Both the position numbers and the translations under genes were made by a program. From Candidula unifasciata (Eukaryota; Mollusca; Gastropoda; Stylommatophora; Geomitridae), in the NCBI GenBank assembly GCA_905116865.2, contig CAJHNH020000691.1:511001-575000 (forward strand): a DNA stretch of 64,000 nt. The letters run 5' to 3'. This document shows, piece after piece, positions 1,556 to 53,091 of this stretch; position 1 is the stretch's first letter; every line of letters starts with the position of its first letter. The notes under the pieces were generated by a model. The model saw nothing but the letters and a program-made list of their open reading frames with translations. It ran no database searches and was not told the origin of the DNA.

Positions 1556-4500
1556 GTAAGTGTAGTCATGAGGGCTGTGTCCAAACAGTTATCTTTACAA
1601 ACTATTTCTAGTACAAGCTATACCTAAGGTGTGTGGTTATACCATTTCTAATACTGTTTCTTCATAGTGTCACCATGTTATTAGTTAACAGCTGGAAAAA
1701 CCTTCACAAGAAAGAAGTAAAAGAAATAGAAATAAAAAAAACCCTTATTCAACAGACAAAGCGGAAAGTATGTTGTAGCTATGATGCTGATCTGCTGGCT
1801 CGAAAGTCTTGGGTTTGGAACTGCAGTGGGTGGATTTGAAAAACAGAAACAGTTGACCTTGGCTCTCAGATCCACCCATCTAAAATGGGGGACAGGAAGT
1901 AAAAATGAAAAAAGAGGCAGCCATGTGATGTTGACCCTATCACCCGCAGAGTGCCAGCTGGCCTGTCAAACAATATGATTCTAGCACCATATGCCCAGTA
2001 AATCACTGGCACTGAGTGAAGAGTGCGGAGGCTCAGATAGATCATTACGGTCTGAGGAGAATGACACTCCGAGGAGTGACCAGGGGATGTGGCCGACCCT
2101 TAACACTCAGGGGAAGGATGAGACGGATATACAATCAGACGGTTACTGGTACCATCAGAATAATAACTCTTTGCTTGCTGCTGAAGATGGGGACGGAGTA
2201 CTTTTGGGAGGGTCCCGAGTGCTGTGATGTCGATTCCTAATTCAACATTCAACATCACTGGCACTGAAAGAGTCTTTTACTAAATATTTATAAATACAGG
2301 GTTTCCTTGACTTGTTATGACCCAGTCCAGTTAACAGGTTTAAGGTGAACTGGTTGTTAAGTCAAATTGTATTTGTTAGCACTGTTTTCATGCAAAAGGG
2401 TTCTAAAAATTGTACATAAAATACAAACATTCTGTCTGTTTACCTATAATTAGACCCTGCTGCACTGTGATCATCATTTCATATAATTCTGTTAACCCGA
2501 CAGTTTAATGTATACTTCTTTACTATTTTTATTTTCATATTTGTTGTTGTAACTTTTCCTGTTGAAGTTGTCAAGCTGTTTTCTTCTCACTGTGAAGGTC
2601 ATGGGTTCGTTTCACAGCTGTATTATTCTATTCACGAGTGCAATTTTTATGGAGACCCCTGGGGATCGTCGCCAGAGCTATGGAGTTTGCGCTTTGTGCG
2701 ATGCTCTTGGCAGGCGGCTAGTCGCTGTGCGGAAAAAGACCAAGCTGTAACCCTTTCGTTTCTAAGCAATATATGATGTTTATATTATCACTTTTAGGTG
2801 AATCCTACCCATTACATAATATGTTCTCATACTTGTCCCCGTGGCAAAGTGCTTGAGTGGTTTGCTTCATGCTCATTTTGTTGTGGAATTGATTGTTTAT
2901 TAACCACATCCTTCATTTTTAGGGAGCTGATGTTTCAAGAGTTTATAAGGGTTGTTGTTGGAGCTGCAGAATCTATGGTTTTTAGGGTGCTTTCCTGAGA
3001 GAGACTGAGCCATATGGGATAAACACCTTGCTCCTTGAAGTTATTTCTTTTGCCTGTAAATTTGTTACATTTGGTTAGAGCACACTTGAGAAATCAGGCT
3101 TCTCAGCTGACAGCTGCTTCCACTGTGCAACTATCATCTTTGAAAGATGACAGACCATGGCAACAGCCAGGCTTAAACAAAAAAGAACCCTGCAAAAGTG
3201 GTAAATAGAGACAGTTAAGGCAGTTTGGTAGATAATGTTATAGTGGTTGTTGTTGATGTTGAAGTTGTGTTCCTCTCGTTGCAGCCACTTTTGTTACTGT
3301 CAGGGTTAATCAGAAAGTCATAATTTACAAAATATCAGAAAAACATTATAATGTGACCACAACACTTGACTATAGGAATATTGAAAATGTCAAATATGAC
3401 TACCAACTTATAGTTTTACCTGTTGTTAGATGTAGTCGGACAGAGCTGAAGTTGAAACTTTAGCTATAGGGCTGTTGTAAATGGCTAGAGAAGTTGGTTA
3501 AACCAGCAAAACTTGTGCATGAATGAAAACAACACAATTATGCCCCCTTTGCTTCATACTTTTAGGTGGGGTCCCTTTGTTCAACAGAAACCAGGATTTT
3601 TCAGATGGTATGCAACAGTGTGCATTACCAGCACCTTTAATTTGGGCATAATTTTTTTTCTGCACTACTGTAATAGACACTTTGTAGTGAGTACTAGCAT
3701 GTTATAGACATCTTGTTATGATTACCAGCACCTTTTCCTAGAAAAAGCTCTGCCAGTAACCATTATTTTTAGAACCAGTCTTCCCCTGTGGATTTTGGGG
3801 TCCCACTGTGGGGAAAACAAGAATAGACCCACTGCCTTCCCAACAAGCATGTTGTACGAGTCAAATTATTGGGGGCTTCCTTCAGAGTCAGAGTGCATCT
3901 GCCTAAGAAACAACAAACCAACCATCTGCTTACAAATAAGCAAGATCTGTAAAATGGATGCACACGCAAAACTCAGGTTCTGGAACAAAGCCGAAGTCCA
4001 GAAATGGACAAACAACCAGGTCTATCCGCCGTGGTTTACATCCGGTGAACACAAAAAACAAGGAACAACAGAACCAGACTGCCAGTATCCTCACTTGAAG
4101 TTTTTCATGTTCTAATCATAATGAATATTTAGCTACATTTATGATGATAATCTAAACGCAGATTCAGAGTTCCGTCCTAAGGGTTTCTCTTTCATCTGGT
4201 TGTGCGCCAGTTTGATATTTTGTGGCCTGGCAACATTCAGCAAGGAACAAGGAATTACAGTTCTTGTGAGTAGCAGTTTTTAACCAAGTGATTTGCGTAG
4301 CTTGGAAATTAGTTTGTTAATAAAGCAAAAGGCCAATCTTACGTCAGTGGCATATCTGGAATGTGATGCTTCTTACGTCAGTTTCATATCTAGAATGTGA
4401 TGCTTCTTACGTCAGTGTCATATCTAGAATGTGATGCGTCTTACGTCAGTGTCATATCTAGAATGTGATGCGTCTTACGTCAGTGTCATATCTAGAATGT

Positions 4501-7500
4501 GATGCGTCTTACGTCAGTGTCATATCTAGAATGTGATGCTTCTTACGTCAGTGTCATATCTAGAATGTGATGCGTCTTACGTCAGTGTCATATCTAGAAT
4601 GTGATGCTTCTTACGTCAGTGTCATATCTAGAATGTGATGCGTCTTACGTCAGTGTCATATCTAGAATGTGATGCGTCTTACGTCAGTGTCATATCTAGA
4701 ATGTGATGCGTCTTACGTCAGTGTCATATCTAGAATGTGATGCGTCTTACGTCAGTGTCATATCTAGAATGTGATGCATCTTACGTCAGTGTCATATCTA
4801 GAATGTGATGCTTCTTACGTCAGTGTCATATCTAGAATGTGATGCGTCTTACGTCAGTGTCATATCTAGAATGTGATGCTTCTTACGTCAGTGTCATATC
4901 TAGAATGTGATGCGTCTTACGTCAGTGTCATATCTAGAATGTGATGATTGACTCACAGTCGGCACACAGTGGATGATGTCAACATCATGCCAGCCCCCAT
5001 TACTTCCCAGGACATTGCCTGCTGCCACTGTTTTGCTGGGTTGAGCTGGGAGCCAAGGTCCCTTTGTAACAAACAAAAATCCACCTTTTGCGAATTTGAA
5101 CCCAAGACCTTGAGGCAGGCGGGTAAGCATCTAACCCAGTGGTTCTCAACCTTCCTAATGCTGCAACCCTTTAATACAGTTCCAAGTGTTGTGGTGACCC
5201 CCAGCCGAAAAATTAATGTTGTTGTTACTTCATAACTTCAGTGTATATGTGTTTTCCTATGGTCTTAGGCAACCCCTGTAAAAGGCTTGTTCGACCCACA
5301 AAAGGGTCATGACCCATAGGTTGAGAACCACTGATCTAACCCCTGCACTGCCAATTAGGTTAATAATGTGATGAAATCTTATGTATATAAGACATTTTCA
5401 TCCATGTCAACATGATACACAATTAATCCAACAATTATGTCCTTACTGATGAGGACACATCACCATTTTTTCGCCTCAGGACATTTGCCTGGATAAGCAT
5501 CTTCATTGCATCTTTCCTAACCGTGCACAAGTGTGCTAGGCCAACAAAACTGCACACCATTGTCCTCTTATACATCAAACTATACTGACCCAATGAAGCA
5601 CCAGGAGACTTACCATTGTCTATAATGTTGTATTCATCTGTGTTTTTGTTACTGGTTGTGTGCATTGTTTTTGATGATGTTTCCATTTGTGTTTTTGTTA
5701 CTGGTTGCATGCATTGATTTTAATGATGTATCCTTCTGTGCTTTTGTAACTGGTTGTATGCATTGTTTTTGATGATGTATCCTTCTGTGCTTTTGTAACT
5801 GGTTGTATGCATTGTTTTTGATGATGTATCCATCTGTTTTTGTTACTGGTTGTATGCATTGGTTTTGATGATGTATCCAACTGTGTTTTTGTTTCTGATA
5901 GTATGCATTGTAGGAACAGATCAAATGGTTTTTGGACCTGAGTCAAGCCTACCACCAGATACAGCACCACAGAGAGCCTTGTCATTCAGACATAATGTAA
6001 GCAGAAATAGAGGTCGACCACACAAGCGATGGATAGATGGAATATCTGAGGCTGTAAATACCAGGGTCTACATAGCACATATCAAGGCTTACACCTGATG
6101 CCTCTTCAAAACCTGATGCTGAAAGGCAGAACAAGACTGAAGAAGAAAAAGAATGCATTGTGTGAGATGTTGTATCTATCATATCAGTGTTTTTCTTACA
6201 GGGACTTTGCAGTGTTTATGATATTGTATCTGTTTGCGGTGTGGACCTCGGAGTCTTGCTTGGATTCACAAAATCAGCAGGCACAAAGTTGTCCGTGTCT
6301 GTGCAGAAGCCTGTGCCTTCAGCATCTTCATCTCTGTCCAATGGAGCTTCATTAAAAAAGGTTTGTGGGGAGAATGGAAGTTTGCTGTGTATTGTTATAT
6401 ATGTGTGTTTGTCCTTTGTGACTAAGTAATGTAGTCATGTGTGTTTATAACAAGTTGTTTTGAACATTCAGATTGTTGCTTTGGCATAGTAGTCGAGCTG
6501 TTTGCCTTGCGCTCTAGAGGTTGTGAGTTCGTTTCACATTGGCAGCTTTCGGTTCATGGGAGCAGTTTTTATGGAGACTCTAGGTGATCATGGCCAGAGC
6601 TATTTAGTTTGTGCTTTGTATGACACTCTTGGCAAGAACTAGCCATTCTGCAGAAAGAGATTGTCATGTGAGATTAAAATCTACTTCAGTGAAGTCGATC
6701 CTCACACCTTTAACCTTTGTTTTGCACTTTCTTCACTACATTAACAACAAAAAAAACAATTCTTACACTTCCTCTTCCTCATCATCTTCTTCTTTTTATC
6801 ATCTTCTTCTTCTTTTTATTCTCTTCATTCTTATTTTCTTTCCTACTGTTTCCTTACCCTTTTACTCTTCTTCATATTCTTTGTCTACTGTCACCCTCTA
6901 TTTTGTCTTTGAGCCCCATTTTTGACTACAGGCCAAGCTTCTTCCCTACCTTTATTTTCATCTTTTTTCTCAGCTTCTCTACCTACATCTCCTGTTTCTT
7001 CTTCATTTGTCTTCATCTTCTTCTTTTTTTTCTCTGGTTCTTTGTTTTCTTCTTTTATGTCTACCTCTTCTTGTTAATTGTTTTCTCTTATTCTCCTTTG
7101 TTTTTCATCTACTACCCTTTCATCATCTGCTGTTTCTTAACATTCATCCTATATTCCCAAATAGCTTATATACAGAGCATTTATTAATAGCAATACTGTT
7201 GACATCTTTTATGTGAATTCCCCAGGAATGTGGATCAGTGGCACCGTGGCAGGTATCACTTGTGAAGCGGCACATTCTGCTTACTGCTACCGGTGTAATA
7301 CTGTTGGTAGTTCGGTGGAAAGTTATGGGGTCATCACCGCCGACATTTCAGATACATGACAACCCTCATTCATTTGTTAATGGATCTCTCTTCAGGGTAG
7401 GAATCCTTATTTGTTTCATCATTAATAATAGACATATTCTATTATTTGTGATAAAGCTCGTTTACACTTGTAATGATGTTACGTGTTCTAATGTTGTTAC

Positions 7501-10500
7501 TGTCTACAATTGACAACACTGAATCGGCACTTGAATTCCAATATGCATTCTATCAGCTTATTGTAGTTTATCATCATTTCTCCACCAACCCAGTTATTCA
7601 ACATCAATCCTTTCCTGGTGATCACAGTTAAACTATGTAATACTCATTTATCCTATATTCTATGTCTTCAAATGCAACAACCGTCTTTGTCGAACTCTGG
7701 TATGCAACTGACCATGAGCCAACCTCAGGTTTTTCCTCCTTCATAACTCTAGCCCGGAGTATTCCCCTGCTTTTGTCTCTTGCACAGGTTTTCTGCTCGG
7801 CCTTCTTTGAGCATGGTCCACTATACAAAACAGAGTCATCACACAATTCAAATTTTGAACTGTGTCCATTTTCATAATAATACTCTTCATATGTAAGACA
7901 TACCTATTCAATATATACGCAGAAAATATAATGAGAAATGTCAAAAATGACCAGACTTGTGACAGTTATGATCCGCTCAGTATTGGTGGCAACCCTATTC
8001 CGGAACTCTGCTACACAGATGACACAGTCCTCCTTTCGAACAGCGTAAAGGGAATAGAAAATTTAATATTGTCCGTCCAAAAGCACAGTGAAGATAAAAA
8101 TCTGTTCTTGAATTTAAAGAAAACGAAAATAATGTCCACAGATAAAACTGGCTGTCACCCAAAAATAACAATAAATAATGAAGAAATTGAAAATGTCACA
8201 CACTTTGAAAATCTAGGCTCTGTAATAAACAACAATGGAGACTGTTCGACAGAAATTAAAAGGAGGATGGCCATAGCAATGCAAAGATTGAACAGCCTTA
8301 AAAGTCTGGTTAAGCACCAGCAAGGAGATAAAAATTAGAATTTCGAGAGCATGCATCTTCCCTGTGGCTACATACGGATGTGAGTCGTGGACTCTCAGTC
8401 CTTAAGAAAGAGAATAGGGGCTTTTGAGCTGAAATGCTATAGAAAGATTCTCAGAATATCTTGGACAAAGAAGATGAGAAATATTGACATCTCAAAAGAT
8501 CTTAACATCAAGGAAGATTGGCTAATAAACAGCATCCTTTCTCAAAAGCTGAAATATTTTGGTCATATCAAGCGCCACGACGGATTGGGAAAAAATTATA
8601 GCAGAAGGCATGGTACCAGGAAGGAGAAGCAGGGGCCGACCGACACCAAGATGGGTACAGGATATAAGTGACTCCTTGAGTGTGAAAGTTCATGAGGCGG
8701 GAGAACTGGCAAGAGACAGAGTTTCTTACAGGCAGACTGTGATGAGAGCGACTTTCTGCAAAGGACCTGCTACATGATGGATGGATGTTGGACTCATTGT
8801 TTCTGTTGTCTTAAGGAAACTTCTCAGATCCTGCACTTTTTTTTTCTTACTTTTATTTTAATAATCAAAACACTCATGCCTGAATTTGTTTTTCTTATGT
8901 GGGTTTTGGGGGGGGGGGGGGGGGGGGGGGGAGAGAGAATAGTAGACCCCCTAAACAAGCATGTCATACAAGGCGACTAATTATGGAAGTTTCCTTTGAA
9001 GTCAGCGTTCATCTGCCTGAGAGACGAGGAACCAACAGTCTGCATGTAAGTAAGCCATATATGTAAAAAAAAATGTGCACGCAAAACTCATGATCGAAGT
9101 CCAGAAATGGATGAACAACCAGAGGTTTTAAAGAGAGTTGACAGCCAGTGAACTTTAAGAAGAGGAAGAAGAATTTGTTTTATGTTTACAAAATGTTTAA
9201 GTCAGTGACACTGTCGAGCTCTTGTTATTGACACTTAGTATCAGTTATTATCCTCAGGTCTTGAACTACAACTACCTGTATGCCATCAATGCCTGGATAC
9301 TGTTGTGCCCACAGTGGTTGTGCTTCGACTGGTCGATGGGTTGTGTGCCTACAATTGCCTCCCTTGATGACCCTCGCCTGATTGCAGTGATGCTATTTTG
9401 GGTCATGTTGCTGCTACTGTTGTGGACTTGCTTGTGCAATGAAAGTATAGCCACCAGAAGGTACTGACATGAATCATGTGTTCCTCATTTTAAGGAGAAG
9501 AAGAATCGACCCACTGCCTCTATAAAAGCATGCCATAAAAGTCGACTAATTAGGAGTGTTTCATTTGAAGTCGCAGTGCATGTGCCTGTGAGTTGAGGGA
9601 CCGGCAATCTGCCTACAAATAAATAAGATCTGTAAAACAGATGTGCATGCAAAACTCAAGTTCTGTGACAAAAGTCCAGAAGTGGATGAAGTACCAGAAC
9701 TTTCCGTTGCTGTTACAGCTGATGCACGTAAATAAGAAGAAAAATCATTTATCACATGAGGCAAACACTATGAATTATTCATAACTCTGCACTGTACACA
9801 AATAAAAAGACACCTTTCTTTACCAGAAGGGTAGACCTTCTGACTTGGGTGGGCATATGAGCTGAGAATGCCTTCAATATAAACCCTGACACTTGGAAGG
9901 CTGCTGCAAAGGACTGAATCATATAGCGAACATCTATCCAGAAAAGTGCAGCAACTTGCAAGGCATCCATAAAAAAGGGCAGCTGAACAACACAGGTAGG
10001 CTAGAAAACCCCTATAACAGACCTTTTATCTACAGACATTGTTCTGTGCCCTCATTGTCCTAGATCCTTCCGGGCACGTATTGGGCTTATATGTCCTAGA
10101 TCCTTCCGGGCACGTATTGGGCTTATAAGTCACTTCTGGACTCACTGACCGTCGACTGTAGTTTCATAACTGATGAAAGAAAGAGTGATCCTCATCACTT
10201 GTGGTGACAAACAACAAGCTGAGCATTGCTTTGTTATGTTATGTTATCACAATCCACTTCACTGCACATTGGGCATTTCCGTGCATGCTGAGTGCTCTAA
10301 TGCAGCAGTCACTCCAAAGTACTTTTACTAATTGTTTCCATAAGAAGCTGGTTATATTGTTTCCTATCTCGGCCTCGAAGACGGCATAGACGTGCTTCAC
10401 TGTGCTTTTCATCCCATGTCACGCAATCGTGTTAGTGTCAGGGATTCCTCATCATCCACTAGCCCAGTCCGTACAGCGTTGACGATATCTGCTCTGTCCA

Positions 10501-13500
10501 TGCTTCTTCCCGCAATCATTAGTGCGGTGCTTGCCAGTTGGTCTGCTCGCTCATTTCCCTTTACCCCCGCATGACCAGGTGTGAAGATCCAGGTGAGGCA
10601 GGTTAAGTGTGATTTTTGAATGGAGCATTGCTATATAGCACCATATGCCTCTTATGCCTCAAGATGTGGAAAAGAGTTCTTTCTTTTATCATACTTTACC
10701 ATTTGTACCTAATAACTCGTCATCATCTGAACAGTTGGCTGCATGGTTCATGGTGTGTGTCTGAGTGGGCATACACTTTGCAGGGGAAGGGGAAGACAAT
10801 AGAAGAAGTCAGGCATTCAGTTCAGCTACTTCTAGTATGACAGTGAAAATAGTAGCTGTCACAAGGGCACTTGCATGGCTGATGGAACAGAAAAGAACTC
10901 ATGCATCAATAGTGACAGACTCAATAAGCATGCTTAACTCTTTAAGGCCCAAACAACGGTGTGAGCGTAGTTTGAGAAGTTCTGTTCTGCCCAAACAACA
11001 GTGTCATCGTTAATCGTGTATCTCTTACATTTTTCTTTGCATGCGCGTTCGTACTAGTTTCTAATGTTTGGAGGTACGAATAACCTATTCAGGGAAAGTC
11101 ACTCTGCCGAAATCCTTTTAGTTTCACTTCTTGAACTAAAACACACGTGGATAATTTGAGAGAAAAAAACATAAATTTTTTTTTTAACAGTTTATTTTCT
11201 AAGTTCGTTTTTGAGTGCACTGAATACCAATGTTCTAACCACAAGAACAGGTCGCAGAATGCGTCTTTCTGCGGCCGAAGCTCTGAAATTGTTTCAGTCA
11301 GATGTTTTTAATTGTGAAAATGATAATAACAATTTAGATTTTTTGGAAAGTGATTCAGACAGTGAATTTTCACCAGTGAAGCTGAGCGATCAGCTGTTCG
11401 GAATCTAGCGATTCTGACGAGTTTATTACACAGACAATGTCCCATACTACCGTATTTATGGTGTAAGAGAAGGAAAGTGCTCTAAACAAAGAGATAGTAC
11501 TATACTATGGCTAAGCCACATTGAAATCATCGCAGCTACAGTCTGTAAATAACTGTACAAAGTGAATAGTAAATAGTGTGTGTGTTATGGCTCATTTTTC
11601 TGCCATTTTTTCTCTGACATTTTGCTTAGCACTCGGTGGAAACTAAGAGCCCCTGAGTGATAAACTAACCCAGAAAGTTATCATAACTTTAGAATATGTT
11701 AGGACATTGAACAAACTTTGAAGTTTTGTTCTGAAATTTGGATATTTACTATTCTTGTGGCTGCAAAACCATGGTAAGTGAAGAATTTTTGTGTGAAAAG
11801 TTGTCCTTGTGAAATTAACACCTGCTGAATTCTGCTTTTCCACTAACTATAACAAAAATAAACAAACACTTATCATCAGATTCAGAATGTACACTCATTT
11901 CTCGTTTAAAAAATATAAACTGTTATAGGGATTAGAAGTATATTACAGTCTCTACAGCCTTTCTTGTACACCCACCCCTCTGCCAGTTTTGTAAAGGGAA
12001 ATTAATGTGGGCCAAGTCTGTCAAAATTCATGGGCCTGAAAGAGTTAAGAAGATCCAGACTAGCAGACTCCAACAAGAATCGGTTGACAGCATCGAGAAT
12101 TTATCAATTTATCAAGAAACTATCTTGGCTGTTACACCAGGATACAAAGGAAAGAAAACAGCCGACAGTGTCTGCAGTAATTAGTTGGGAAAGAAGTATG
12201 GACAGGGCAGATATACTGAATAGGCTGTGTTCCAAAGAGGTTGAGACAGATTAATCAGAGGCTGCACTGCATGTTGAAAATGGATTTTAAACAGCATCAA
12301 GCATGTAAAGCATGTAGAAACTGGTTGTAGGCAAAGAAAGAAGATGTGCCACTCAACTCTTACTGGGTGCATTAAACATGGAGATACTGAGAGGGCTGCT
12401 GCATCAGAGGACGGAACACGAATGAGTCAGACCTATGTACTAGGATGTTGTAAACAAATAACATAACCGTACATTGAGGAAAAACAAGTCTTGTTAACTT
12501 GTACCCCTGTTGTAGCTTGCAGTATTTGGTATTAATTTCTGTAAGGTTGTTCTTGATTCAATCATTCCATCCTTTGTATGATCAAGTTGTTCTTGATGCC
12601 ATCATTCCATCCTTTGTATGATCAAGTTGTTCTTGATGCCATCATTCTGTTTTATACATGGTCATGTTTTTCTTGATGCCATCATTCCATATTTTGCATG
12701 GTCAGTTTGTTCTTTATTCCATCTTGCTCGTTCCATAATTTACCCAGTCAGGTTGCTGTTGATGCCATCATTCCATCTTTCACAAGCTTAAGTTGTACTT
12801 GATGCCATTGTTCCAACCCTTAAATGCTCAGGTTGTCTTGATGCCATCGTTCCATGGTTTTGCCCTTGTACTGTGCTTATTATGTTTCTTCCACATAACT
12901 GGTAACTAATACTAAGGCGTTCTGTAATGAATTGTTTAACTGGTTTAATTCCTCGCTTCCTTCTACTTCAGACATCTCAATATTTAATTGTTTGAGTATC
13001 TTTGTGTTTTCAAATCAAATACTACTTGTAGACCAACTATTAGTTTTATGTAACACAATTTAAAAAAATAAACTAAGTGCTTAAACAATATTTAATAACT
13101 AGTTTGGCAAATCAGATACTAATTTTCTTGATGGCTAACTTGGGCAGCAAATGTCTGCAGAAGTCAGATGCATCGGCCAAAAGACGCAAATATTGCAGCC
13201 ATGTTGTAAACAGACACGACACATTTTACACCTTCAGATGAATGCAGAACTATCAGAAGAAGAAGATACTAATTTCACTTATTCTAGAGCCACAATTACA
13301 GTTTTTAAATAACACCATGCAAATCAAATAACATTTTTAAATCAAACATTAATTTTTATGATTCTAGAATTACAATTAGTTTTTGAATATGACTGTTTTA
13401 AAATTAATCACTGCGTTTGATTATCCTACTAGAGCTGTGAGTTTAGCTATGGCTGTCATTGTGGTGCCCTTCTTGCCTGCCACCAATATTCTCTTCCGTG

Positions 13501-14140: not shown

Positions 14141-17100
14141 TTATCTTTGGCAATATGCCAGATTCATGTAAGTGCAATTGTGGCAGTTCTCACCTAATGA
14201 ATTTACAGAGCTGTTTTTGTGTGTGTCACTTGATTAATGCTAAAAGCACACCTGTGACTTTCTATTCTGGAAAACCTGTTTCTAGGATTACTGAACCTGT
14301 TTCTAGGATTACTTAACCTGTTTCTAGGATTACTGTACCTGTTTCTAGGGTTACTGTACCTGTTTCTAGGATTACTGAACCTGTTTCTAAGATTACTGAA
14401 CCTGTTTCTAGGATTACTGAACCTGTTTCTAGGATTACTGAACCTGTTTCTAGGATTACTGAACCTGTTTCTAGGATTACTGTACCTGTTTCTAGGATTA
14501 CTAGACCTGTTTCTAGGATTACTGAACCTGTTTCTAGGATTACTGTACCTGTTTCTAGGATTACTGAACCTGTTTCTAGGATTACTGAACCTGTTTCTAG
14601 GATTACTGAACCTGTTTCTAGGATTACTGAACCTGTTTAATAGGTCTTGACTAGGATGAGCCCTGGTCTTGGTGAACTACCTCTACATCCCGATGTGTAT
14701 TCAGTTGTATGTTAAAGCATAAAATAGGATACTTCCATACTCATGTGTAAAGGAGGAATGACAGATAAAAGTGCTTTTGTTTGTGTTTATGCAATTATAC
14801 TGTCATCCCCATGTGGGTTGCAGTTTTATGTTATTTTGATGCCCCACCCTGGCTTTTGCCGAGGGCCTTAAATATAGCCGGGCCTGAAATAGGGTCTAAC
14901 GGCTGAACAGGGTTTCCGGGACCTCTCCTCGGGTGATCCTCATCCGCATGGTGGCACTTTGTGTGACCGGGCGTTTATCGCTTGTGTGATGTCCTGGTGG
15001 GGGTACAATACATACCTACCTGTTTATGCAACATATTAGCAAAAACAACAACAACAACAATCTGCCATGTGTGTACCAGTCCATAAGATGTTCAAGAAAA
15101 ATTAAAAAGTCGACCACATTCAACCTACTGCGAACAGTTTTAGTTATAATTATAGTCTGACGTCTCTGTGCCCAATGTATTGACTAAGATATATTATTTG
15201 TGCCAAATTTAATGGCTTCAGTAGTTTTGTCAGGTATTATAAATAGCTAAGTGACTCTACCAGTGAGTCTTGTCCATCTTTGCATGTTTGGGACTGGTAT
15301 TTTAGTCTTTTTGTTTGAGTGGTTGTCCTTTTTGTCTGTCTGTCTGTCATCCTAATTTAGGCTGTGATTGTGATATGTATAAAGGGGTAATTCTCTTGTG
15401 GTCTAGTTTAACATATTTGATATCAAGATGGTGAGTCCTGTCCTCCTCCATTGGGTCCAGTTATTATTATTATTATTATAATACTGTATTAATGTCCTAA
15501 TGATATTCCATCTTGGCTTGTTCATCTCCTCCTATGTTGGAGTAACCAAGCTGGTATGGTTCTGTGCTGCCTGCAGAGTACCCAGGGCCAGTACCAGTAT
15601 ATGTGACACATAGTAAGGACTTTATGTAGCTGGGTCAGGAAGACCATCAATCACTAGTATACATTGTCTTCTGCAGGTTGCTTTGGCTGGGTTTGTTCTA
15701 CTGATTCTTCTGTTTGCTGCCAGATCAGCACAGGTATGATCATTATATTTTGTTTTGTTTCTTGCTGCCATGTTACAGAGCTGCTGAACCACACATTGTG
15801 GTATACCAGGGCTGATACCAGTGAAGGTGTCCACAACTCTTTGTGGCATCCTAGAAATGGATTCCCAAACAGGGACTGGCCATTGTAGATAGGATCAATA
15901 TGTCTTTCAAAGTCGGAGTGCATCTATCTGAGAGGCAGGCGTCTAGGAAGGTGTCCACAACTTTTTGTGGCATCCTAGAAATAGGTTCCCAATCGGGGAC
16001 TGGCCATTGTAGATAGGATCAACATGTCCTTCAAAGTCGGAGTGCATCTATTTGAGAGACAAGCAACCAACAGTCTGGACATAGTGGACAGTAAAGAACA
16101 GAAAGCTATGCTACAAGTATAGAAAGCTATGCTACAATGAAAGTAGGAAATGCTATGGCCATGCTGCAAGAAGAGACATCCATGCTACAGTGAAAGAAAT
16201 CCATGCTACAAGGAAAGAAATCCATGCTACAAGGAAAGAAATCCATGCTACAGTGAAAGAAATCCATGCTACAAGGAAAGAAATCCATGCTACAAGGAAA
16301 GAAATCCATGCTACAAGGAAAGAAATCCATGCTACAAGGAAATAAATCCATGCAACAAGGAAAGAAATCCATGCTATGAGGAAAAAAATCCATGTTACAC
16401 AGAAACAAAGCCATGTTAACAGAAACAAAACATTGCTACAATAAAAGAAAGCCATGCTACAATGAAAGAAATCCATGCTACAATGAAAGAAATCCATGCT
16501 ACAAGGAAATAAATCCATGCTACAGTGACATAAATCCATGCTACAGTGAAATAAATTCATGCTACAAGGAAAGAAATCCATGCAACAAGGAAAGAAATCC
16601 ATGCAACAAGGAAAGAAATCCATGCTACAAGGAAAGAAATCCATGCTGCAAGGAAAGAAATCCATGCTACAAGGAAAGAAATCCATGCTACAAGGAAAGA
16701 AATCCATGCTACAAGGAAAGAAACCCACACTACAAGGAAAGAAACCCATGCTACAAGGAAAGAAATCTATGCAACAAGAAAGGAAATCCATGCTACAAGG
16801 AAAGAAACCCACACTACAAGGAAAGAAATCCATGCTACAAGGAAAGAAATCCATGCAACATGGAAAGAAATCCATGCTACAAGGAAAGAAACCCACACTA
16901 CAAGGAAAGAAACCCATGCAACAAGGAAAGAAATCCATGCTACAAGGAAATAAATCCATGGTACAAGGAAAGAAATCCATGCTACAAGGAAAGAAATCCA
17001 TGCTACAAGGAAAGAAATCCATGCTACAAGAAAAGACACCCATGTTACAAGGAAAGACACCCATGTTACAAGGAAAGAAATCCATGCTACAAGGAAAGAA

Positions 17101-20100
17101 ATCCATGCTACAAGGAAAGAAATCCATGCTACAAGGAAAAAAATCCATGCTACAAGGAAAGACACCCATGTTACAAGGAAAGAAATCCATGCTACAAGGA
17201 AAGAAATCCATGCTACAAGGAAAGAAATCCATGCTACAAGGAAAGAAACCCACACTACAAGGAAAGAAACCTGTGCTACAAGGAAAGAAATCCATGCAAC
17301 AAGGAAATAAATCCATGCTACAAGGAAAGAAATCTATGCAACAAGAAAGGAAATCCACGCTACAAGGAAAGAAACCCACACTACAAGGAAAGAAATCCAT
17401 GCTACAAGGAAAGAAATCCATGCAACAAGGAAAGAAATCCAGGCTACAAGGAAAGAAACCCACACTACAAGGAAAGAAACCAATGCAACAAGGAAAGAAA
17501 TCCATGATACAAGGAAATAAATCCATGCTACAAGGAAAGAAATCCATGCTACAAGGAAAGAAATTCATGCTACAAGGAAAGAAATCCATGCTACAAGGAA
17601 AGAAATCCATGCTACAAGGAAAGAAACCCATGCTACAAGGAAATAAATCCATGCAACAAGGAAAGAAATCCATGCTACAGGGAAAGAAATCCATGCTACA
17701 AGGAAAGAAATCCATGCTACAAGGAAAGAAATCCATGCTAACAAGAAAGAAATCCATGCAACAAGGAAAGAAATCCATGCCACAAGGAAAGAAATCCATG
17801 CCACAAGGAAAGAAATCCATGCTACAAGGAAAGACATCCATGCTACAAGGAAAGAAACCCATGCTACAATGAAAGAAATCCTTGCTACAAGGAAAGAAAT
17901 CCGTGCAACAAGGAAAGAAATCCATGCTACAAGGAAAGAAATCCATGCAACAAGGAAAGACATCCATGCAACAAGGAAAGAAACCCATGCTACAAGGAAA
18001 GAAATCCTTGCTACAAGGAAAGAAATCCATGCAACAAGGAAAGAAATCCATGCTACAATGAAAGAAATCCATGCAACAAGGAAAGAAATCCATGCTACAA
18101 GGAAAGAAATCTATGCTACAAGGAAAGAAATACATGCTACAAGGAAAGAAACCCACACTACAAGGAAAGAAACCCATGCTACAAGGAAAGAAATCTATGC
18201 AACAAGGAAAGAAATCCATGCTACAAGGAAAGAAATCCATGCTACAAGGAAAGAAATCCATGCAACAAGGAAAGAAATCCATGCTACAAGGAAAGTTATC
18301 CATGCTACAAGGAAAGAAATCCATGCTACAAGGAAAGAAATCCATGCTACAAGGAAAGAAATACATGCTACAAGGAAAGAAACCCACACTACAAGGAAAG
18401 AAATCTATGCAACAAGGAAAGAAATCCATGCTACAAGAAAGGAAATCCATGCTACAAGGAAAGAAATCCATGCTACAAGGAAAGAAATCTATGCAACAAG
18501 GAAAGAAATCCATGCTACAAGGAAAGAAATCCATGCAACAAGGAAAGAAATCCATGCTACAAGGAAAGAAATCCATGCTACAAGGAAAGAAATCCATGTT
18601 ACAAGGAAAGAAATCCATGCTACAAGGAAAGAAATCCATGCTACAAGGAAAGAAATCCATGCTACAAGGAAAGAAATCCATGCTACAAGGAAAGAAATCC
18701 ATGCTACAAGGAAAGAAATCCATGCAACAAGGAAAGAAATCCATGCTACAAGGAAAGTTATCCATGCTACAAGGAAAGAAATCCATGCTACAAGGAAAGA
18801 AATCCATGCTACAAAGAAAGAAATACATGCTACAAGGAAAGAAACCCACACTACAAGGAAAGAAACCCATGCTACAAGGAAAGAAATCTATGCAACAAGG
18901 AAAGAAATCCATGCAACAAGGAAAGAAATTCATGCTACAAGGAAAGAAATCCATGCTACAAGGAAAGAAATCCATGCTACAAGGAAAGAAATCTATGCAA
19001 CAAGGAAAGAAATCCATGCTACAAGAAAGGAAATCCATGCTACAAGGAAAGAAATCCATGCTACAAGGAAAGAAATCTATGCTACAAGGAAAGAAATCCA
19101 TGCAACAAGGAAAGAAATCCATGCTACAAGGAAAGTTATCCGACAATGGAAGAAAGCCATTTATTTTCAAAAATGACCTTGACCCTTATGTCGATCCAGC
19201 CTTACTGTGTACTGGGTGAAGTCCTGGGAAGTAAAGGCGGCAGATGTGATGCTGACCACATCACTCATCAAGTGCTCATTGATCTATAAAGTATAGGTCT
19301 AGCGAATGTACCCAGTGTGCCTAATGGTGTAGAAAAGGGCTCTTTTTGTAATATAATTAAGGGTAGAAATATTTTTTTTGCTAAGAACTATTTTGTTAGT
19401 TTCAGTCGCAGTTGTTTTATGTATTTTGCAGAGAAGTAATGAATGGAGGAAAGGCATATGGTTGTTCAGAGCGGGAGAGAAGGTCTGTCCTGACAATGCT
19501 AAGGTGAGACTTCTTCTTGACACCCACAATCTGTTGAAGCCCACATGAGTGAAGTCACTTTGTCTAGCGTGACTTATGCTGCCACATGAGTGAAGTCACT
19601 TTGTCTAGCGTGACTTATGCTGCCACATGAGTGAAGTCACTTTGTCTAGCGTGACTTATGCTGCCACATGAGTGAAGTCACTTTGTCTAGCGTGACTTAT
19701 GCTGCCACATGAGTGAAGTCACTTTGTCTAGCGTGACTTATGCTGCCACATGAGTGAAGTCACTTTGTCTAGCGTGACTTATCTGCCACATGAGTGAAGT
19801 CACTTTGTCTAGCGTGACTTATGCTGCCACATGAGTGAAGTCACTTTGTCTAGCGTGACTTATGCTGCCACATGAGTGAAGTCACTTTGTCTAGAGTGAC
19901 TTACGCTGCCACATGAGTGAAGTCACTTTGTCTAGCGTGACTTATGCTGCCACATGAGTGAAGTCACTTTGTCTAGCGTGACTTATGCTGCCACATGAGT
20001 GAAGTCACTTTGTCTAGCGTGACTTATGCTGCCACATGAGTGAAGTCACTTTGTCTAGCGTGACTTATGCTGCGACATGAGTGAAGTCACTTTGTCTAGC

Positions 20101-22717
20101 GTGACTTATGCTGCCACATGAGTGAAGTCACTTTGTCTAGCGTGACTTATGCTGCCACATGAGTGAAGTCACTTTGTCTAGCGTGACTTATGCTGCCACA
20201 TGAGTGAAGTCACTTTGTCTAGCGTGACTTATCTGCCACATGAGTGAAGTCACTTTGTCTAGCGTGACTTATGCTGCCACATGAGTGAAGTCACTTTGTC
20301 TAGCGTGACTTATGCTGCCACATGAGTGAAGTCACTTTGTCTAGCGTGACTTACGCTGCCACATGAGTGAAGTCACTTTGTCTAGCGTGACTTATGCTGC
20401 CACATGAGGAAGTCACTTTGTCTAGCGTGACTTATGCTGCCACATGAGTGAAGTCACTTTGTCTAGCATGACTTATGCTGCCACATGAGTGAAGTCACTT
20501 TGTCTAGCGTGACTTATGCTGCCACATGAGTGAAGTCACTTTGTCTAGCGTGACTTATGCTGCCACATGAGTGAAGTCACTTTGTCTAGCGTGACTTATG
20601 CTGCCACATGAGTGAAGTCACTTTGTCTAGCGTGACTTATGCTGCCACATGAGTGAAGTCACTTTGTCTAGCGTGACTTATGCTGCCACATAAGTGAAGT
20701 CACTTTGTCTAGCGTGACTTATGCTGCCACATGAGTGAAGTCACTTTGTCTAGCGTGACTTATGCTGCCACATGAGTGAAGTCACTTTGTCTAGCGTGAC
20801 TTACGCTGCCACATGTCTCTGTATTCCAATGTATCTGTTAATGTTGACTGTTGTTTGTTATGTGAGTTCCAAAGATTATCATAAAGATTTATCATAGGAT
20901 GGTAGAGTTATGACACATTTCTGACATGAGGGTTAGTGAGAACAAGTCTCATCATCATCATGTAGCAGGTCCTTTGCAGAATGTTGCTCTCATTACGGTC
21001 TGCCTGAAAGAAACTCAGTCTCTCCCGCCTCATATACTTTCATACTCAAGGAGTCACTTATAACTTGTGCCCATCTTTGTTTCGGTGCCCCTCCTTCCTG
21101 GTACCATGCCTTCTGCTATAATTTTTTTTTCCGTTGTACTTGATATGACCAAAATATTTCAGCTTCTGAGACAAGATGCTGTTTATTAGCCAATCTTCCT
21201 TGATGTTCAGATCTTTCAAGATGTCAGTATTTCTCCTCTTCTTTGTCCAAGATATTCTGAGAATCTTTCTATACTATTTCAGCTCAAAAGCCCCTATTCT
21301 CTTTCTTAAGGACTGGGAGATAGTCCATAATTCACATCTGTATGTTGCTACAGGAAAGATGCATGCTCTCAAAATTCTTTTTTTTTGGAGACAAGTCTAG
21401 TTGTTGAAAATTGTGTTTGGAAAATAAGGAATTTAAGGCTATCTTCCAAATAACGGTCCCAAATTATCGAGGCAGAAAATATACCCTAACATGGCCTCAG
21501 TCACGTGTCAATTGCGCACTTCCGCCACCGCCGAGAGTATCCCCCACACCGCTCACGCGGCATGGATTTGGGCTAAACTAGATGGCTGGGACTCACGAGC
21601 ACCAGCAACCGCATTTCCTGCAGCTGCCCTGATTTTATTTGCTCATTAGTCCTAGCCATCTAGTTTAGCCCCAATCCACGCCGCGAGAGCGGTGTGGGGG
21701 ATACTCTCGGTATAGTCCCCGAAAGTTCGCAATTTGGCGGTGGGGGTATAGTCCCCGGAAGTGCGCAATTGACACGTGACTGATGCCCTGTTAGGGTATA
21801 TTTTCTGCCTCGATAATTTAGGACCGTTATTCGGAAGATAGCTGAATTTAAAATAACATACTTCAATGCTCTCCTCTCCGTCTCCCCAGTCTAAGAGTAG
21901 TGGATTGGATTTCTCACCTTTTTTCAGACAGATAGTATCAAATAGGATGTCTCTCATTAGACAGTAGTCTTCTGCAAAGCATCTATTAAAATGGATGGTC
22001 CAGAAGTGTGTTTGTCAGCCTGTTAATGCTTGCAGGATGGAAAAATGTTTCATAGTGATGGTTAGGACAGAACAAAAAATGTTGACAGTATTTTATTTAT
22101 TAGATCAGATAAAATTCAGATTTTTAGCTTATGCGAAATAAAAATCATCATATAATAATTTATTTATTAGGTCTAATATTATAAAATTCAAATTTTTAGG
22201 CAACGCCAAATGAAATAAAAACAAAAAATTGTAAGAATTACATCCCGTGTTAAACAATTTAAATTTTTAGCTCATGCAAATAAATAAATGTTGATAGCAC
22301 TTTTTTTTTTTAGATTGAGTGTTATAAAATTCTGATTTCTGGCTAACAAAAGAGGTTCGAAACTTGATATACCTAGCTGGACCATTGTTTCTGAGACAAT
22401 AAAGATCTGATTTTTGATTTGTCTGATAAGAGATGTGTGAGTGTGTTAAGATTGGCATCTTTTTCTTTCAACTGGTCTGATATTTAGCATTAAACAGGTC
22501 CATAACAATATTGGCTAACTGTGTAGATAATGATCTAGAGTACCAGTATATGGTATATAATGTTGCTGATAGAAGGGTAATATGTTGGTATTTGTATCTG
22601 GTAATTTTTGTCTAAAAATTAAACAGGTCCATTATAATATCAAACAGCTGTGTGGAGACGATGGTCTAGGGTTGAAGTTGAAAGGATCGACTTCATTGCA
22701 CCAGTTTTAATCCACAT

Positions 22718-33890: not shown

Positions 33891-34590
33891 GTATTTTATT
33901 AATAAAGCACCAACTTTTATTCAGATTTATGCAGACAAACAGGCATGGTCTTAGCTCTGCGTTTGTCCTGTTAAAACAGGCATTTACTTTTAAATAGCAG
34001 ATTTTGTATTTCACTTAGAAGGATTGATTTATGTGTTTCATTATGTTCAATTGTTACTGTACTGTGCACCTGCTAGAATACAGCAAAATATATCAGGCGA
34101 TAAATTGTGCAATTTATTGTTTGTGTCCTCATTGTTTAGATTTACAGGGCAACATTGCTTTGATATGCAAATGAATAATTTTTATATTTTTAGTTGCATT
34201 AATGTACTTTTTTTTTTTGGTGTGCATTGCATACAGACATATGGATGGCTATATTTTTGCAATAGAAACTAATGTAAATTACTAAGTGTTATTGCAGTGG
34301 TGCAGATATATGTGATTTATAATGTTTGCTGCGTTGTTTATCCTGTTGATGATACACTCACATTGTGTATGTTTTTTTTTTTAAATATTTTTAAATATTT
34401 GTTTATGGTAAAAAAAAAGCAAAAATATATAACTTACACATATGTTTGCATGTCAGCACATCTTTTTTGTGAGTGCTTCAAAAGTTAGTTGTGTATCCTT
34501 TACAGGATGTTGCAGAACCAACCCAAGCATTTTTTGGCTATTGTGGTTTTTTAAGGCAAATTTATTGTTTAGTAGTTTGCTGTTGTTTCT
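33891..34590. other. Intergenic, nothing recognised
   Basis: AT-rich spacer up to the 25-bp array. Confidence 0.5.
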
Positions 34591-37065
34591 GACAGCCCAT
34601 GGATATTGTGAGTGTGACAGCCCATGGATATTGTAAGTGTGACAGCCCATGGATATTTGAGTGTGACAGCCCATGGATATTGTGAGTGTGACAGCCCATG
34701 GATATTGTGAGTGTGACAGCCCATGGATATTGTGAGTGTGACAGCCCATGGATATTGTAAGTGTGATAGCCCATCAATATTGTGAGTGTGACAGCCCATG
34801 GATATTGTGAGTGTGACAGTCCATGGATATTCTGAGCGTGACAGCTCATGGATATTGTGAGTGTGACAGCTCATGGATATTGTGAGTGTGACAGTCCATG
34901 GATATTGTGAGTGTGACAGTCCATGGGTATTGTGAGTGTGACAGCCCATGGGTATTGTGAGTGTGACAGTCCATGGATATTGTGAGTGTGACAGTCCATG
35001 GTTATTGTGAGTGTGACAGCCTGTGGATATTGTGAGTGTGACAGCCCATGGATATTGTGAGTGTGACAGTCCATGGATATTGTGAGTGTGACAGCCCATG
35101 GATATTGCGAGTGTGACAGCCCATGGATATTGTGAGTGTGACAGCCTATGGATATTGTGAGTGTGACAGCCCATGGATATTGTGAGTGTGACAGTCCATA
35201 GATATTGTGAGTGTGACAGCTGATGGATATTGTGAGTGTGACAGCCCATGGATATTGTGAGTGTGACACCCTCTGGATATTGTGAGTATGACAGCCCCTG
35301 GATATTACAAGTATGACAGCCCATGGATATTGTGAGTGTGACCACCCATGGATATTGTGAGTGTGACCGCCCATGGATATTGTGAGTATGACCGCCCATG
35401 GATATTGTGAGTATGACCGCCCATGGATATTTTTAGTGTGACAGCTCCTGGATCTTGTGAGTGTGACCGCCTATGGATGTGAGTGTGACAGCCCATGGAT
35501 ATTGTGAGTGTGACAGCCCATGGATATTTTTAGTGTGACAGCTCCTGGATCTTGTGAGTGTGACCGCCCATGGATATTGTGAGTGTGACAGCCCATGGAT
35601 ATTGTGAGTGTGACAGCCCATGGGTATTGTGAGTGTGACAGTCCATGGATATTGTGAGTGTGACAGCCCATGGTTATTGTGAGTGTGACAGCCCATGGAT
35701 ATTGTAAGTGTGACAATCCATGGATATTGTGAGTGTGACAGTCCATGGATATTGTGAGTGTGACAGTCCATGGTTATTGTGAGTGTGACAGCCCATGGAT
35801 ATTGTGAGTGTGACAGCCCATGGATATTGTGAGTGTGACAGTCCATGGATATTGTGAGTGTGACAGCCCATTGTTATTGTGAGTGTGACAGCCCATGGAT
35901 ATTGTAAGTGTGACAGCCCATGGATATTGTGAGTGTGACAGCCCATGGATATTATGAGTGTGACAGCACATGGATATTGTGAGTGTGACAGCGCATGGAT
36001 GTTGTGAGTGTGACAGCCCATGGATATTGTGAGCGTGACAGCCCATGGATATTGTGAGTGTGACAGTCCATGGATATTCTGAGCGTGACAGCTCATGGAT
36101 ATTCTGAGCGTGACAGCTCATGGATATTGTGAGTGTGACAACCCATGGATATTGTGAGTGTGACAGCTCATGGATATTGTGAGTGTGACAGTCCATGGAT
36201 ATTGTGAGTGTGAAAGCCCATCAATATTGTGAGTGTGACAGCTCATGGATATTGTGAGTGTGACAGTCCATGGATATTCTGAGCGTGACAGCTCATGGAT
36301 ATTGTGAGTGTGACAGCTCATGGATATTGTGAGTGTGACAGCTCATGGATATTGTGAGTGTGACAGCTCATGGATATTGTGAGTGTGACAGTCCATGGAT
36401 ATTGTGAGTGTGATAGCCCATCAATATTGTGAGTGTGACAGCCCATGGATATTGTGAGTGTGACAGTCCATGGATATTCTGAGCGTGACAGCTCATGGAT
36501 ATTGTGAGTGTGACAGCTCATGGATATTGTGAGTGTGACAGCCTGTGGATATTGTGAGTGTGACAGCCCAGAGATATTGTGAGTGTGACAGCCCAGAGAT
36601 ATTGTGAGTGTGACAGCCCATAGATATTGTGAGTGTGACAGCCCAGAGATATTGTAAGTGTGACAGCCCATACATATTGTGAGTGTGACAGCCCATATAT
36701 ATTGTGAGTGTGACAGCCCATGGGTATTGTGAGTGTGACAGTCCATGGGTATTGTGAGTGTGACAGTCCATGGATATTGTGAGTGTGACAGTCCATGGAT
36801 ATTGTGAGTGTGACAGCCCATAGTTATTGTGAGTGTGACAGCCCATGGATATTGTGAGTGTGACAGCCCCGTGGATATTAATAGTATGACTGTCCGTGGA
36901 TATTGTGAGTGTGACAGCCCCGTGGATATTGCGAGTGTGACAGCCCATGGATATTGCGAGTGTGACAGCCCGTGGATATTGTGAGTGTGACAGTCCGTGG
37001 ATATTGCTAGTGTGACGGCCGTGGATTCTGTGATTATGACAGCCCATGGATGTCGTGAGTGTGAC
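34591..37065. repeat. 25-bp minisatellite, about 99 copies, 2.5 kb
   Basis: Unit ACAGCCCATGGATATTGTGA plus GTGTG. The 25-bp length rotates the reading frame so that the minus strand gives a 25-residue peptide period (MGCHTHNIHGLSHSQYPWAV...). Variants such as GAGCGTGACAGCTCATGG and CATAGATATTG cluster, indicating local block duplications. Confidence 0.97.
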
Positions 37066-40248: not shown

Positions 40249-40909
40249 CAGGGGTTCTCAAACTTTTTTTTTGCTGTATCACCCTTCTCGAGCTAAAAAA
40301 AACATTTGCGGCACACCACCTATCCTTACCCTTAAAGCGGGTTGAATACTTAAGGAAAAAAAGAAAAGAAAAAAGTGTAAATTTACTGTTTAGTTGTCTT
40401 AGATGCAATGACACGAACAAATGCAACCAAATTCCCCTTTCATTCATTCAGCCTTTACGCACCTTTATATTCTTACTAGCAATATCTTCAAATCTGATTT
40501 GGAATGAAAAAAATTGCACGCACGCATTCACACACACACACACACACAAATAGCACCAAAAGAACACTTTACCTATAAATTAGTTTTACTTTATCAGGCT
40601 AGCAGTTACCAATATACAGACCAAATTTTCCACTATAAAATTTCACTCAAACTTTAACCACAACTTTACTTATCGACTGCACCTTAACAAATTCAAGAAG
40701 AAGATTGGTCGCACCTCGAGATAAATACAAGGACAAATGTTAGCACGCTGCAATTGAGACTATGCAATACGAAACATGCCTGAGTGTAAAACAAATATTA
40801 AACTCTTTACAACAGTGACGAGAGAAGAACTTAACTTTTAACTTTTAAGTATCAGCATGCTTTCTTTAAAAATTTCTTGATTATTGCCGTGGCACCCTGA
40901 GAACCTCTG
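40249..40909. mobile_element. hAT-type non-autonomous element, about 660 bp
   Basis: The left end CAGGGGTTCTCAAACTTTTT and right end CCTGAGAACCTCTG (inverse CAGAGGTTCTCAGG) are hAT-like inverted termini. GCATAGGC (40241-40248) and GCATAAGC (40910-40917) flank it, an 8-bp duplication with one difference. GGCACACCACC near the left end and GTGGCACCC near the right end pair further. No transposase frame is present; (CA)n lies at 40528-40549. Confidence 0.8.
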
Positions 40910-41929: not shown

Positions 41930-43077
41930 CCCCTGGCCAGGTGGTCAGTTTTTGTGTGTGTTAATAATTGAAGATGTATTCCAGTGAATAGAAGAAATTA
42001 ATTTGCATACTTTGTAGCATTCTGAATCAAATGTGGCCAGTTGATTGATGATTGCTAGATGATCTGTGATGTCATTATGCTGCAATGATAGTTATAGCTT
42101 TGACCAGTGTACCACCATCATCCTCAGCGTTACAAAAAATGAACATTCCTTATCTGCAGAAGACTGCAGGTTACATTCGACATGATAGAGTGATATAAAT
42201 AGAAAGAAGTAGAAAGACAGGACACAATAGACAACATAAACATCTAAAGTTGTAGTTGCTGTGCCTGAATCGAACCTGTCACTTGCAGATGGCGACTGCA
42301 CCTACCGACAGGAACATGAAAAAAATTAATTCTATGGAGAATTGAACCAGCTTAAAAGAATTGTATGCTTAGTGTGGCTATCTGTCGTTGCGTGTTTACT
42401 AGTCAACTGTATGTTCAGTAGTTTGCTGTAGCCCCCTGAATGTTTGACTCCGCTGCCATTGCTGAAATGAATGTAAAGTGGTGTGCTGACAAACCACTAG
42501 AATGATACCATGTATCCTGAAATTACAAACAGCCTTCGTCACTCCTAGGCCACAGACACTGAAATGAAAATATTAGGTCAGTAAAAATATTTCATCAGAA
42601 AGACCAGCTCATTATTGACATCACCAAGAAATAAATAATGAAAGATTGTAAGAAGAAAGGAACCATTTCAGATAGAAAAAAACCTCTAATCAATAAAGAA
42701 GAAGAACAATTTTGTCCTTAATCATTTTCAAAAGGACAGAAAACACCAGCTTGTCAAGGAGAAAACGTGTCAGCAAAGTCTGCATCAGCCCAAACTGCTA
42801 GCTCTGTCAGATGGTGCATCAGAAACACGTCATACAAAGGTAAGTTGATAAACTGTAGTGTTGTTAAATCTTCCATTCTTACAATGTTTTGTCTTTGATC
42901 ATTGCTTTTATACTATGTTAGCATTTGTTCACACCAACAGAAGTTTACATTTTGTTTGTACTCATATTAGATTTGCTGCAGTTATCGACTAAATGTTTTT
43001 GCAAGACAAGACTACAGCAAGTTGAATTAGGTTAGCTACCTGCTCCTGAATAAATATATACACATATAATACCATCA
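41930..43077. other. Intergenic, nothing recognised
   Basis: No exon, RNA or array seen; a tRNA-like SINE remnant is possible at 42240-42310 (GCCTGAATCGAACCTGTCAC). Confidence 0.45.
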
Positions 43078-43385
43078 TCATGTAGCAGGTCCTTTGCAGA
43101 ACGTCGCTATCATCAGTCTGCCGGAAAAAATCTCGGTATATCGCCAGCTTTCCCACCTCATGCACTTTCCTACTCAAGGAGTCACTTATATCCTGTGCCC
43201 ATCTTTGTGTTGGTCGGCCCCTGCCCCTCCCTCCTGGTACCATGCCTTCTGCTATAATTTTTTCCAGTCCATCGAGGCGCTTGATATGACCAAAATATTT
43301 CAGCTTCCGAGACAGGATGCTGTTTATTAGCCAATCTTCCTTGATGTTCAGATCTTTCAAGATGTCAATATTTCTCCTCCTATAT
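43078..43385 (-). mobile_element. LINE 3' fragment, antisense
   Basis: GTAGCAGGTCCTTTGCAGAA, GTCTGCC, CTCAAGGAGTCACTTATATC and CTTGATGTTCAGATCTTTCA. The minus strand reads [20 protein letters not shown] then AEGMVPGGRGRGRPTQRWAQ, so this copy is intact over about 95 codons. Confidence 0.9.
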
Positions 43386-43406
43386 ATATATATTTGTGTG
43401 TGTGTA

Positions 43407-43830
43407 GCAGGTCCTTTACAGAGCATGGCTCACGTCGTGGCCTGCCTGAAAGGAACACGGTTTCTCGCCAGCTGTCCTGCCTTGTGCATTTTCCTTCCCA
43501 AGGTGTCATTTTTCCGGTGCCCATCTTTGTACTGGTCGACCCCTGCCACTCTTTCATTGTACCATGCGCTTTCCTGTTAATTTTTTTCCCATCCACAGTG
43601 GTGCTTGATATGGCTAACCTATTGTGTTTTTTTTTAGATAAGAAGTTGCTTACTACATACAGCAGTCTTCCTTGATATCCGGATCTTTTAGAATGTCAGA
43701 TTTCTTGTCTTCTTTGTTAATGGTATTTTGAGAATCTGTCTATAGCATTTCAATTCAAAGGTCACTATTTGTTTTCCTTAAGGAATTCATGATAGTTCAC
43801 GGCTCACTTTCATATATTGATACAAGGATG
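43407..43830 (-). mobile_element. Second LINE 3' fragment, antisense
   Basis: GTAGCAGGTCCTTTACAGAG, then a diverged version of the same LINE 3' region back to AATTCATGATAGTTCACGGC. It directly abuts the preceding copy through (TA)n/(TG)n. Confidence 0.8.
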
Positions 43831-52900: not shown

Positions 52901-53091
52901 TGTGGCAGAGTGTAGACATGACCAAACACTTGTGGCAGAGTGTAGACATAAACAAACATTTGTGACAGAGTGTAGACATGACCAAACATTTGTGGCAGAG
53001 TGTAGACATGACCAAACATTTGTGGCAGAGTGTAGACATGAACAAACATTTGTGGCAGAGTGTAGACATGACCAAACATTTGTGGCACAGT
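49966..53091. repeat. 30-bp minisatellite, about 104 copies, 3.1 kb, two subtypes
   Basis: The first block (49966-50345) uses CCTTTATCACACAGTGTAGA then CATGAGCAAA, 12-13 copies. From about 50350 the unit becomes CATTTGTGGCAGAGTGTAGA then CATGACCAAA. Shortened units (GGCAGACATGACC) occur at 51350-51630 and 52290-52350. Minus-strand frames of up to 923 codons with the period HVYTLPQMFG are artefacts of the 30-bp unit. Confidence 0.97.

Follow-up and report, generated by a model that had tools for sequence, protein, structure and literature searches.

A SPIN-type element inserted into a tRNA-type SINE

The window analyzed here is a 64,000-nucleotide stretch of the Candidula unifasciata genome (contig CAJHNH020000691.1, positions 511,001 to 575,000). 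It contains a 197-bp non-autonomous SPIN-type hAT element (MITE) on the forward strand at window positions 5137–5333. The 16-bp terminal inverted repeats are located at 5137–5152 (left, forward strand) and 5318–5333 (right, reverse strand), and the 8-bp target site duplication ATCTAACC is present on both sides, at 5129–5136 and 5334–5341. The two inverted ends match one another perfectly, as do the two copies of the duplication. The original prediction for this locus, a 197-bp element with a perfect 8-bp duplication, is borne out in both respects. The inverted ends had been described as perfect over 15 bp; their perfection holds, and they are one base longer than claimed.

The window copy is 88.8% identical over its 197 bp to a consensus of 42 genomic copies, with a K2P distance to that consensus of 0.077 when CpG columns are left out. 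It is an ordinary single-unit copy, without sign of host function. A search of Rfam with window positions 4900–5600 gave no match up to an E value of 1. The counterpart of consensus positions 29–64, the source of a 31-bp tandem unit in other copies, lies at 5165–5200 on the forward strand. Here the short repeats read AACCC at 5165–5169, where the consensus has GACCC, and GACCC at 5196–5200. With up to two mismatches the SPIN end motif occurs three times in the window, at the two ends of the element and at 40249, and none of 100 dinucleotide shuffles of the window contained three or more occurrences. The occurrence at 40249–40264 is a second hAT-like end, CAGGGGTTCTCAAACT, which differs from the SPIN end by two mismatches. 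Across the whole window, the SPIN end itself was the one partner found for it at up to two mismatches.

The element is inserted near the 5' end of a degraded tRNA-type SINE that runs on the reverse strand and occupies 4955–5136, with a few further bases at 5342–5348. Relatives of this SINE, at 60–77% identity, are present at 18 fetched loci (among which L006 and L013 overlap, as do L007 and L014) and at five other places in the window. When one copy of the duplication is removed, the joined segments 4955–5136 and 5342–5348 align to a SPIN-free relative in locus L070. The alignment extends only 7 bp beyond the insertion point, with five of the seven bases identical, because the SINE ends there. 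tRNA-like promoter boxes were identified by eye in the same alignment, and ARAGORN found no intact tRNA gene in the SINE. The dispersed relatives and the promoter boxes support the predicted tRNA-derived flank. The predicted order of events is likewise supported: since the L070 relative is uninterrupted by SPIN, the SINE preceded SPIN at this site. Judged by its divergence, the SINE also looks older than the SPIN burst as a whole. As read from the sequence, the inverted ends and 8-bp duplication are the footprint of a cut-and-paste insertion into the pre-existing SINE. A related SINE in locus L030 carries another SPIN copy, inserted at almost the same position. Window positions 1783–1884 were considered as a SINE relative spanning the insertion point and rejected, as the alignment begins inside the duplication.

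The window contains several further repeats. A 34-bp tandem array of about 18 units that are 97% alike (4337–4946) adjoins the SPIN-bearing SINE. Long tandem arrays are found at 16159–19135 (21-bp unit, about 142 copies), 19541–20815 (41 bp, about 31), 34590–37065 (25 bp, about 99) and 49979–53091 (30 bp, about 105), and part of these carry long open frames. A fragment of reverse transcriptase (RVT_1, E = 2.3e-7) and, behind it, a tail reading frame lie at 7859–8671. By eye, the tail frame recurs at 42989–43429, and the two segments are pieces of one LINE family.

Relationship to tetrapod SPIN

SPIN (SPACE INVADERS) elements are non-autonomous elements best known from tetrapods, both mammals and reptiles. 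The 42-copy consensus is identical to mammalian SPIN at 192 of 197 positions outside 28 bp of gaps, a lead from a non-blind comparison, as the mammalian reference was written down after the snail consensus already existed. The mouse genes Adh5 and Ate1 each provide a matching stretch that we take to be SPIN. The left 96 bp of the consensus match the mouse Adh5 intron, as printed in PMC8376875, at 79 of 96 positions, with a score of 60 where shuffled sequences reached at most 15. Two mouse Ate1 primers, as printed in PMC2837401, fit the right half of the consensus over 19 and 20 bases with one and two mismatches, respectively.

The translated SPIN left end was also found in 19 short open reading frames from public metagenomes, which carry no organism names; 17 of them have E values below 1e-3. 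Eight of the 19 additionally match the translated middle segment of the mammalian reference form, each scoring above 200 shuffles. A second protein search with the translated left end added six metagenomic frames, again without organism names, five of which have E values below 1e-3. The letters of the mouse intron, the mouse primers and the metagenomic frames are all independent of the mammalian reference. Exact-pattern scans found no SPIN in viral contigs or in prokaryote genome contigs, and BLAST found none in phage records.

The predicted SPIN-type hAT family is supported both by the mammalian SPIN reference and by the printed mouse DNA. Placement in a different hAT family had been named as the outcome that would tell against it, and in these comparisons the consensus points to no other hAT family. 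The inverted ends, the 8-bp duplication and nearly the whole interior are shared with the SPIN elements of tetrapods and Rhodnius. The differences are that the snail consensus lacks 28 bp present midway in the mammalian short form used as reference, that the host is a land snail, and that some copies have internal 31-bp arrays.

Genome-wide copies, target sites and mobilization

We searched the 1.34-Gb assembly, which comprises 7,176 contigs. A DNA similarity search with the window copy, in which 40 of 4,686 candidates were scored, gave at least 41 matches with 83% identity or more among the matches listed, the window itself counted. The 42-copy set consists of 39 fetched stretches, the window, and two further copies found within those stretches, and was selected for similarity to the window copy. 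A 25-base pattern from the right end, allowing up to two mismatches, matches the genome 4,479 times, and its reversed control does not match at all. This pattern is passed by 34 of the 42 copies and by five of 15 copies chosen via another part of the element. Because it misses part of the known copies, the true number is likely above the pattern count and may, by a rough estimate, be about 5,500 to 13,400.

The 8-bp target duplications of the 42 copies are exact in 12, have one mismatch in 17 and two in seven; the other six copies have more mismatches and no clear target duplication. By comparison, when the flanks were shuffled 1000 times, exact duplications averaged 0.38 and never exceeded 3. 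The hAT superfamily is marked by an 8-bp target site duplication and by short terminal inverted repeats beginning CA(G). Short inverted ends and an 8-bp duplication are both present here, with the duplication exact in the window copy and within one mismatch in 29 of the 42 copies. In 33 of the 36 copies with no more than two mismatches, TA occupies target positions 4–5 on each side, and the SPIN target sites conform to nnnTAnnn. Target sites of the form nnnTAnnn belong to the Buster group of hAT.

The element is non-coding, and its copies were likely moved by a transposase of SPIN/Buster type supplied in trans. hAT transposase dimer domains are very common in the genome, with all 150 scored candidates (of 2,154) matching. 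No convincing SPIN ends were found beside hAT transposase loci at the 30 loci checked, where the sole SPIN-end match is 21 bp long with an E value of 0.81 (L069).

Some copies have unusual arrangements. L044 holds two inverted SPIN copies with 8 bp between them. L134 and L137 match the consensus from position 91–92 to the right end only and are unlike it in the left part; each may be what is left of a longer element or the product of a simple deletion. At G000:C576:71260-71334 the right-end pattern occurs twice, 50 bp apart, which is perhaps a second kind of internal duplication.

Tandem arrays of a 31-bp unit inside SPIN copies

A 26-base pattern near the left end matches the genome 14,801 times, three times the right-end count, and the listed matches are frequently spaced 31 bp apart. 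In the consensus, the short sequence GACCC occurs at positions 29–33 and 60–64, a spacing of exactly 31 bp. We fetched 40 left-end places, nine chosen for neighboring matches and 31 listed as single. Arrays of consensus positions 29–59 are present in all nine of the former and in seven of the 31 latter, giving 16 array loci. Of 20 right-end places sampled in the order of the list, one (L140) bears an array, and arrays are therefore a minority of copies. In this minority, the 31 bp between the two GACCC repeats have expanded inside the element.

Seven array copies retain both SPIN ends. Their unit numbers are 2 in L098, 9 in each of L094, L097 and L111, 12 in L108, 18 in L096 and 24 in L113. 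Exact duplications flank the whole element in L094 and L111 and, after a small shift, in L098, and those of L096, L097, L108 and L113 have two or three mismatches. L091 has a left end and about 86 units; no right end was recognized in the remaining 1.3 kb. L090 has a right end and about 79 units, and is truncated where the fetched stretch stops.

Units were compared in the 14 of the 16 array loci that have at least six regular units. The mean distance is 0.095 between units of the same array and 0.140 between units of different arrays, and the within-array value is the smaller one in all 14. Eight of the 14 array consensuses bear a base that is absent from every other array consensus. The smaller within-array distances and the private bases argue that arrays grew or were homogenized locally, at many loci. 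The likely cause of the expansion is slippage at the GACCC repeats or unequal exchange involving them, locus by locus. A further reading, to which we assign a probability of about 0.65, is that a horizontally acquired transposon of vertebrate type founded new satellite DNA in a land snail, its GACCC pair letting any copy grow an array in place.

The arrays might instead have spread with a single master copy, or a handful of them, that already contained an array, and not have been born repeatedly in place. Dispersal of this kind would fit the shared number of nine units in L094, L097 and L111, two of which have exact target duplications. It would also fit a C at consensus position 59, which is common to seven of the 14 arrays and is found in 11 of 42 other copies, a difference that is not significant (Fisher p = 0.11). 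The unit numbers nevertheless span 2 to about 86, more than half of the arrays have a private consensus base, and the consistently smaller within-array distances point to local expansion or homogenization. We regard dispersal from master copies as possible but doubtful, and repeated local growth from the GACCC pair as the better account of the arrays.

The host genome is molluscan

The molluscan haemocyanin domain PF14830 has 62 matches in the genome and none in any of 14 control genomes. A haemocyanin frame from the genome matches 14 solved sequences, all named haemocyanin. Two large clusters, on contigs C640 and C5207, hold most of the 62 domain matches. The genome also contains six intronless, open frames resembling acetylcholine-binding protein (L052–L057), at least three of them on contig C3142, which are 31–41% identical to the Lymnaea acetylcholine-binding protein. 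With 41% as the highest identity, Lymnaea stagnalis is rejected as the host. One such frame differs at the first five residues of its alignment with a Candidula unifasciata protein and then agrees with it at 230 residues in a row; its next relatives are another protein at 70% and one from Bradybaena similaris at 52%. The haemocyanin domains and the Candidula protein identity establish the mollusc host that had been predicted.

Age and origin of the SPIN copies

K2P distances were calculated with CpG columns left out. In two less biased sets, counting copies aligned over at least 150 bp, the mean distance to the consensus is 0.108 for 18 of the 20 copies picked by the right end and 0.106 for 17 of the 24 picked as single-unit copies. 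In the 42 copies chosen for likeness to the window copy it is 0.083. The original prediction had proposed a genome-wide count of copies and divergence; the outcome is thousands of copies, at a mean K2P of about 0.11 in the less biased sets. The tree of the 42 copies is star-like, with none of 39 nodes reaching a support of 0.9 and with terminal branches making up 0.91 of its length. This scatter around one consensus suggests that the copies amplified in a burst and then decayed neutrally. If substitutions accumulate at 1 to 3 x 10^-9 per site per year, a rate assumed here, the burst would date to roughly 35–110 million years ago.

Horizontal transfer is most likely and is by far the best explanation for these copies, because non-coding DNA this alike could not persist since the split between molluscs and vertebrates. 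The transfer proposed in the original prediction is thus supported by a mammalian likeness that extends to the non-coding interior and by copies that are about 11% from their consensus. SPIN would have entered the snail lineage horizontally. We consider it highly probable that the land snail holds several thousand non-coding SPIN-like copies that were mobilized in trans after horizontal entry.

SPIN-like copies are also present in Lymnaea. The note had described SPIN as reported in very few invertebrates, a view that is out of date: a hAT element with significant identity to SPIN is described from Biomphalaria glabrata in about 1,000 copies (PMC5440852). That element shares with ours a snail host and the reported identity to SPIN. 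Its copies are several times fewer than those of Candidula, and the two are likened here by description. SPIN in snails is accordingly already known, at least as described for Biomphalaria, and the land-snail host is the new part. A literature search found no published report of a land snail with SPIN. The main text of the Candidula unifasciata genome paper (PMC8496239) contains neither the word SPIN nor the word hAT.

Three other origins need to be weighed against horizontal entry into the land-snail lineage. Vertebrate contamination of the assembly, whether of the contig or of its element, would be suggested by the tetrapod associations of SPIN and by the closeness of the snail consensus to the mammalian form. 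It is contradicted by the molluscan haemocyanin clusters and the Candidula protein in the genome, and by the element itself, whose copies are spread over many contigs of up to several Mb, are 83–87% identical to the window copy and are inserted in the genome's own SINE. We treat this possibility, which had been named as a test of the prediction, as negligible. Vertical descent of a native molluscan hAT, with SPIN-like ends that reflect old kinship, would agree with the abundance of hAT transposase domains in the genome and with the occurrence of SPIN-like elements in another snail, as described in PMC5440852. Such descent is very improbable, since the mammalian likeness is not confined to the ends but spans the non-coding interior, could not outlast the mollusc–vertebrate split, and is accompanied by copies only about 11% from their consensus.

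A single entry of SPIN into the ancestor of pond and land snails, followed by inheritance, would account for the copies in Lymnaea as well as those reported in Biomphalaria. We consider it unlikely, as copies with a mean K2P of about 0.11 seem too little diverged for an invasion that predates the split of these snails, an argument that fails if the substitution rate is slow or if amplification came much later than entry. Horizontal entry followed by a burst of trans-mobilized copies remains our explanation for the Candidula elements.

Discussion

Satellites that originate within short DNA transposons are known, and the kind of array seen in Candidula is therefore not new. The examples described in PMC9659126 include miDNA4 and Xstir from Xenopus, and HindIII and BIV160 from bivalves. 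The arrays of Candidula share with them a tandem repeat that lies within a short DNA transposon and is locally homogenized. Where PMC9659126 names the family, the parents are Tc1-mariner or pearl elements, whereas the parent in Candidula is a SPIN-type hAT. The Candidula unit is also bounded by the element's own GACCC repeats, unlike the satellites as described there. We found no satellite arrays derived from SPIN in the published literature.

SPIN is a textbook example of a transposon that crosses between phyla, and its range, which already included freshwater snails, now takes in a land snail that holds it in thousands of copies. Pulmonate snails thereby become a group in which to test how many such transfers occurred, when, and by which carriers. 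The arrays indicate that an invading element can seed tandem repeats. Because each copy sets out with the same two short repeats, one genome would have hosted thousands of parallel trials of satellite birth. If this is true, a single invasion amounts to thousands of potential satellite birthplaces, some of which have now grown to more than 80 units.
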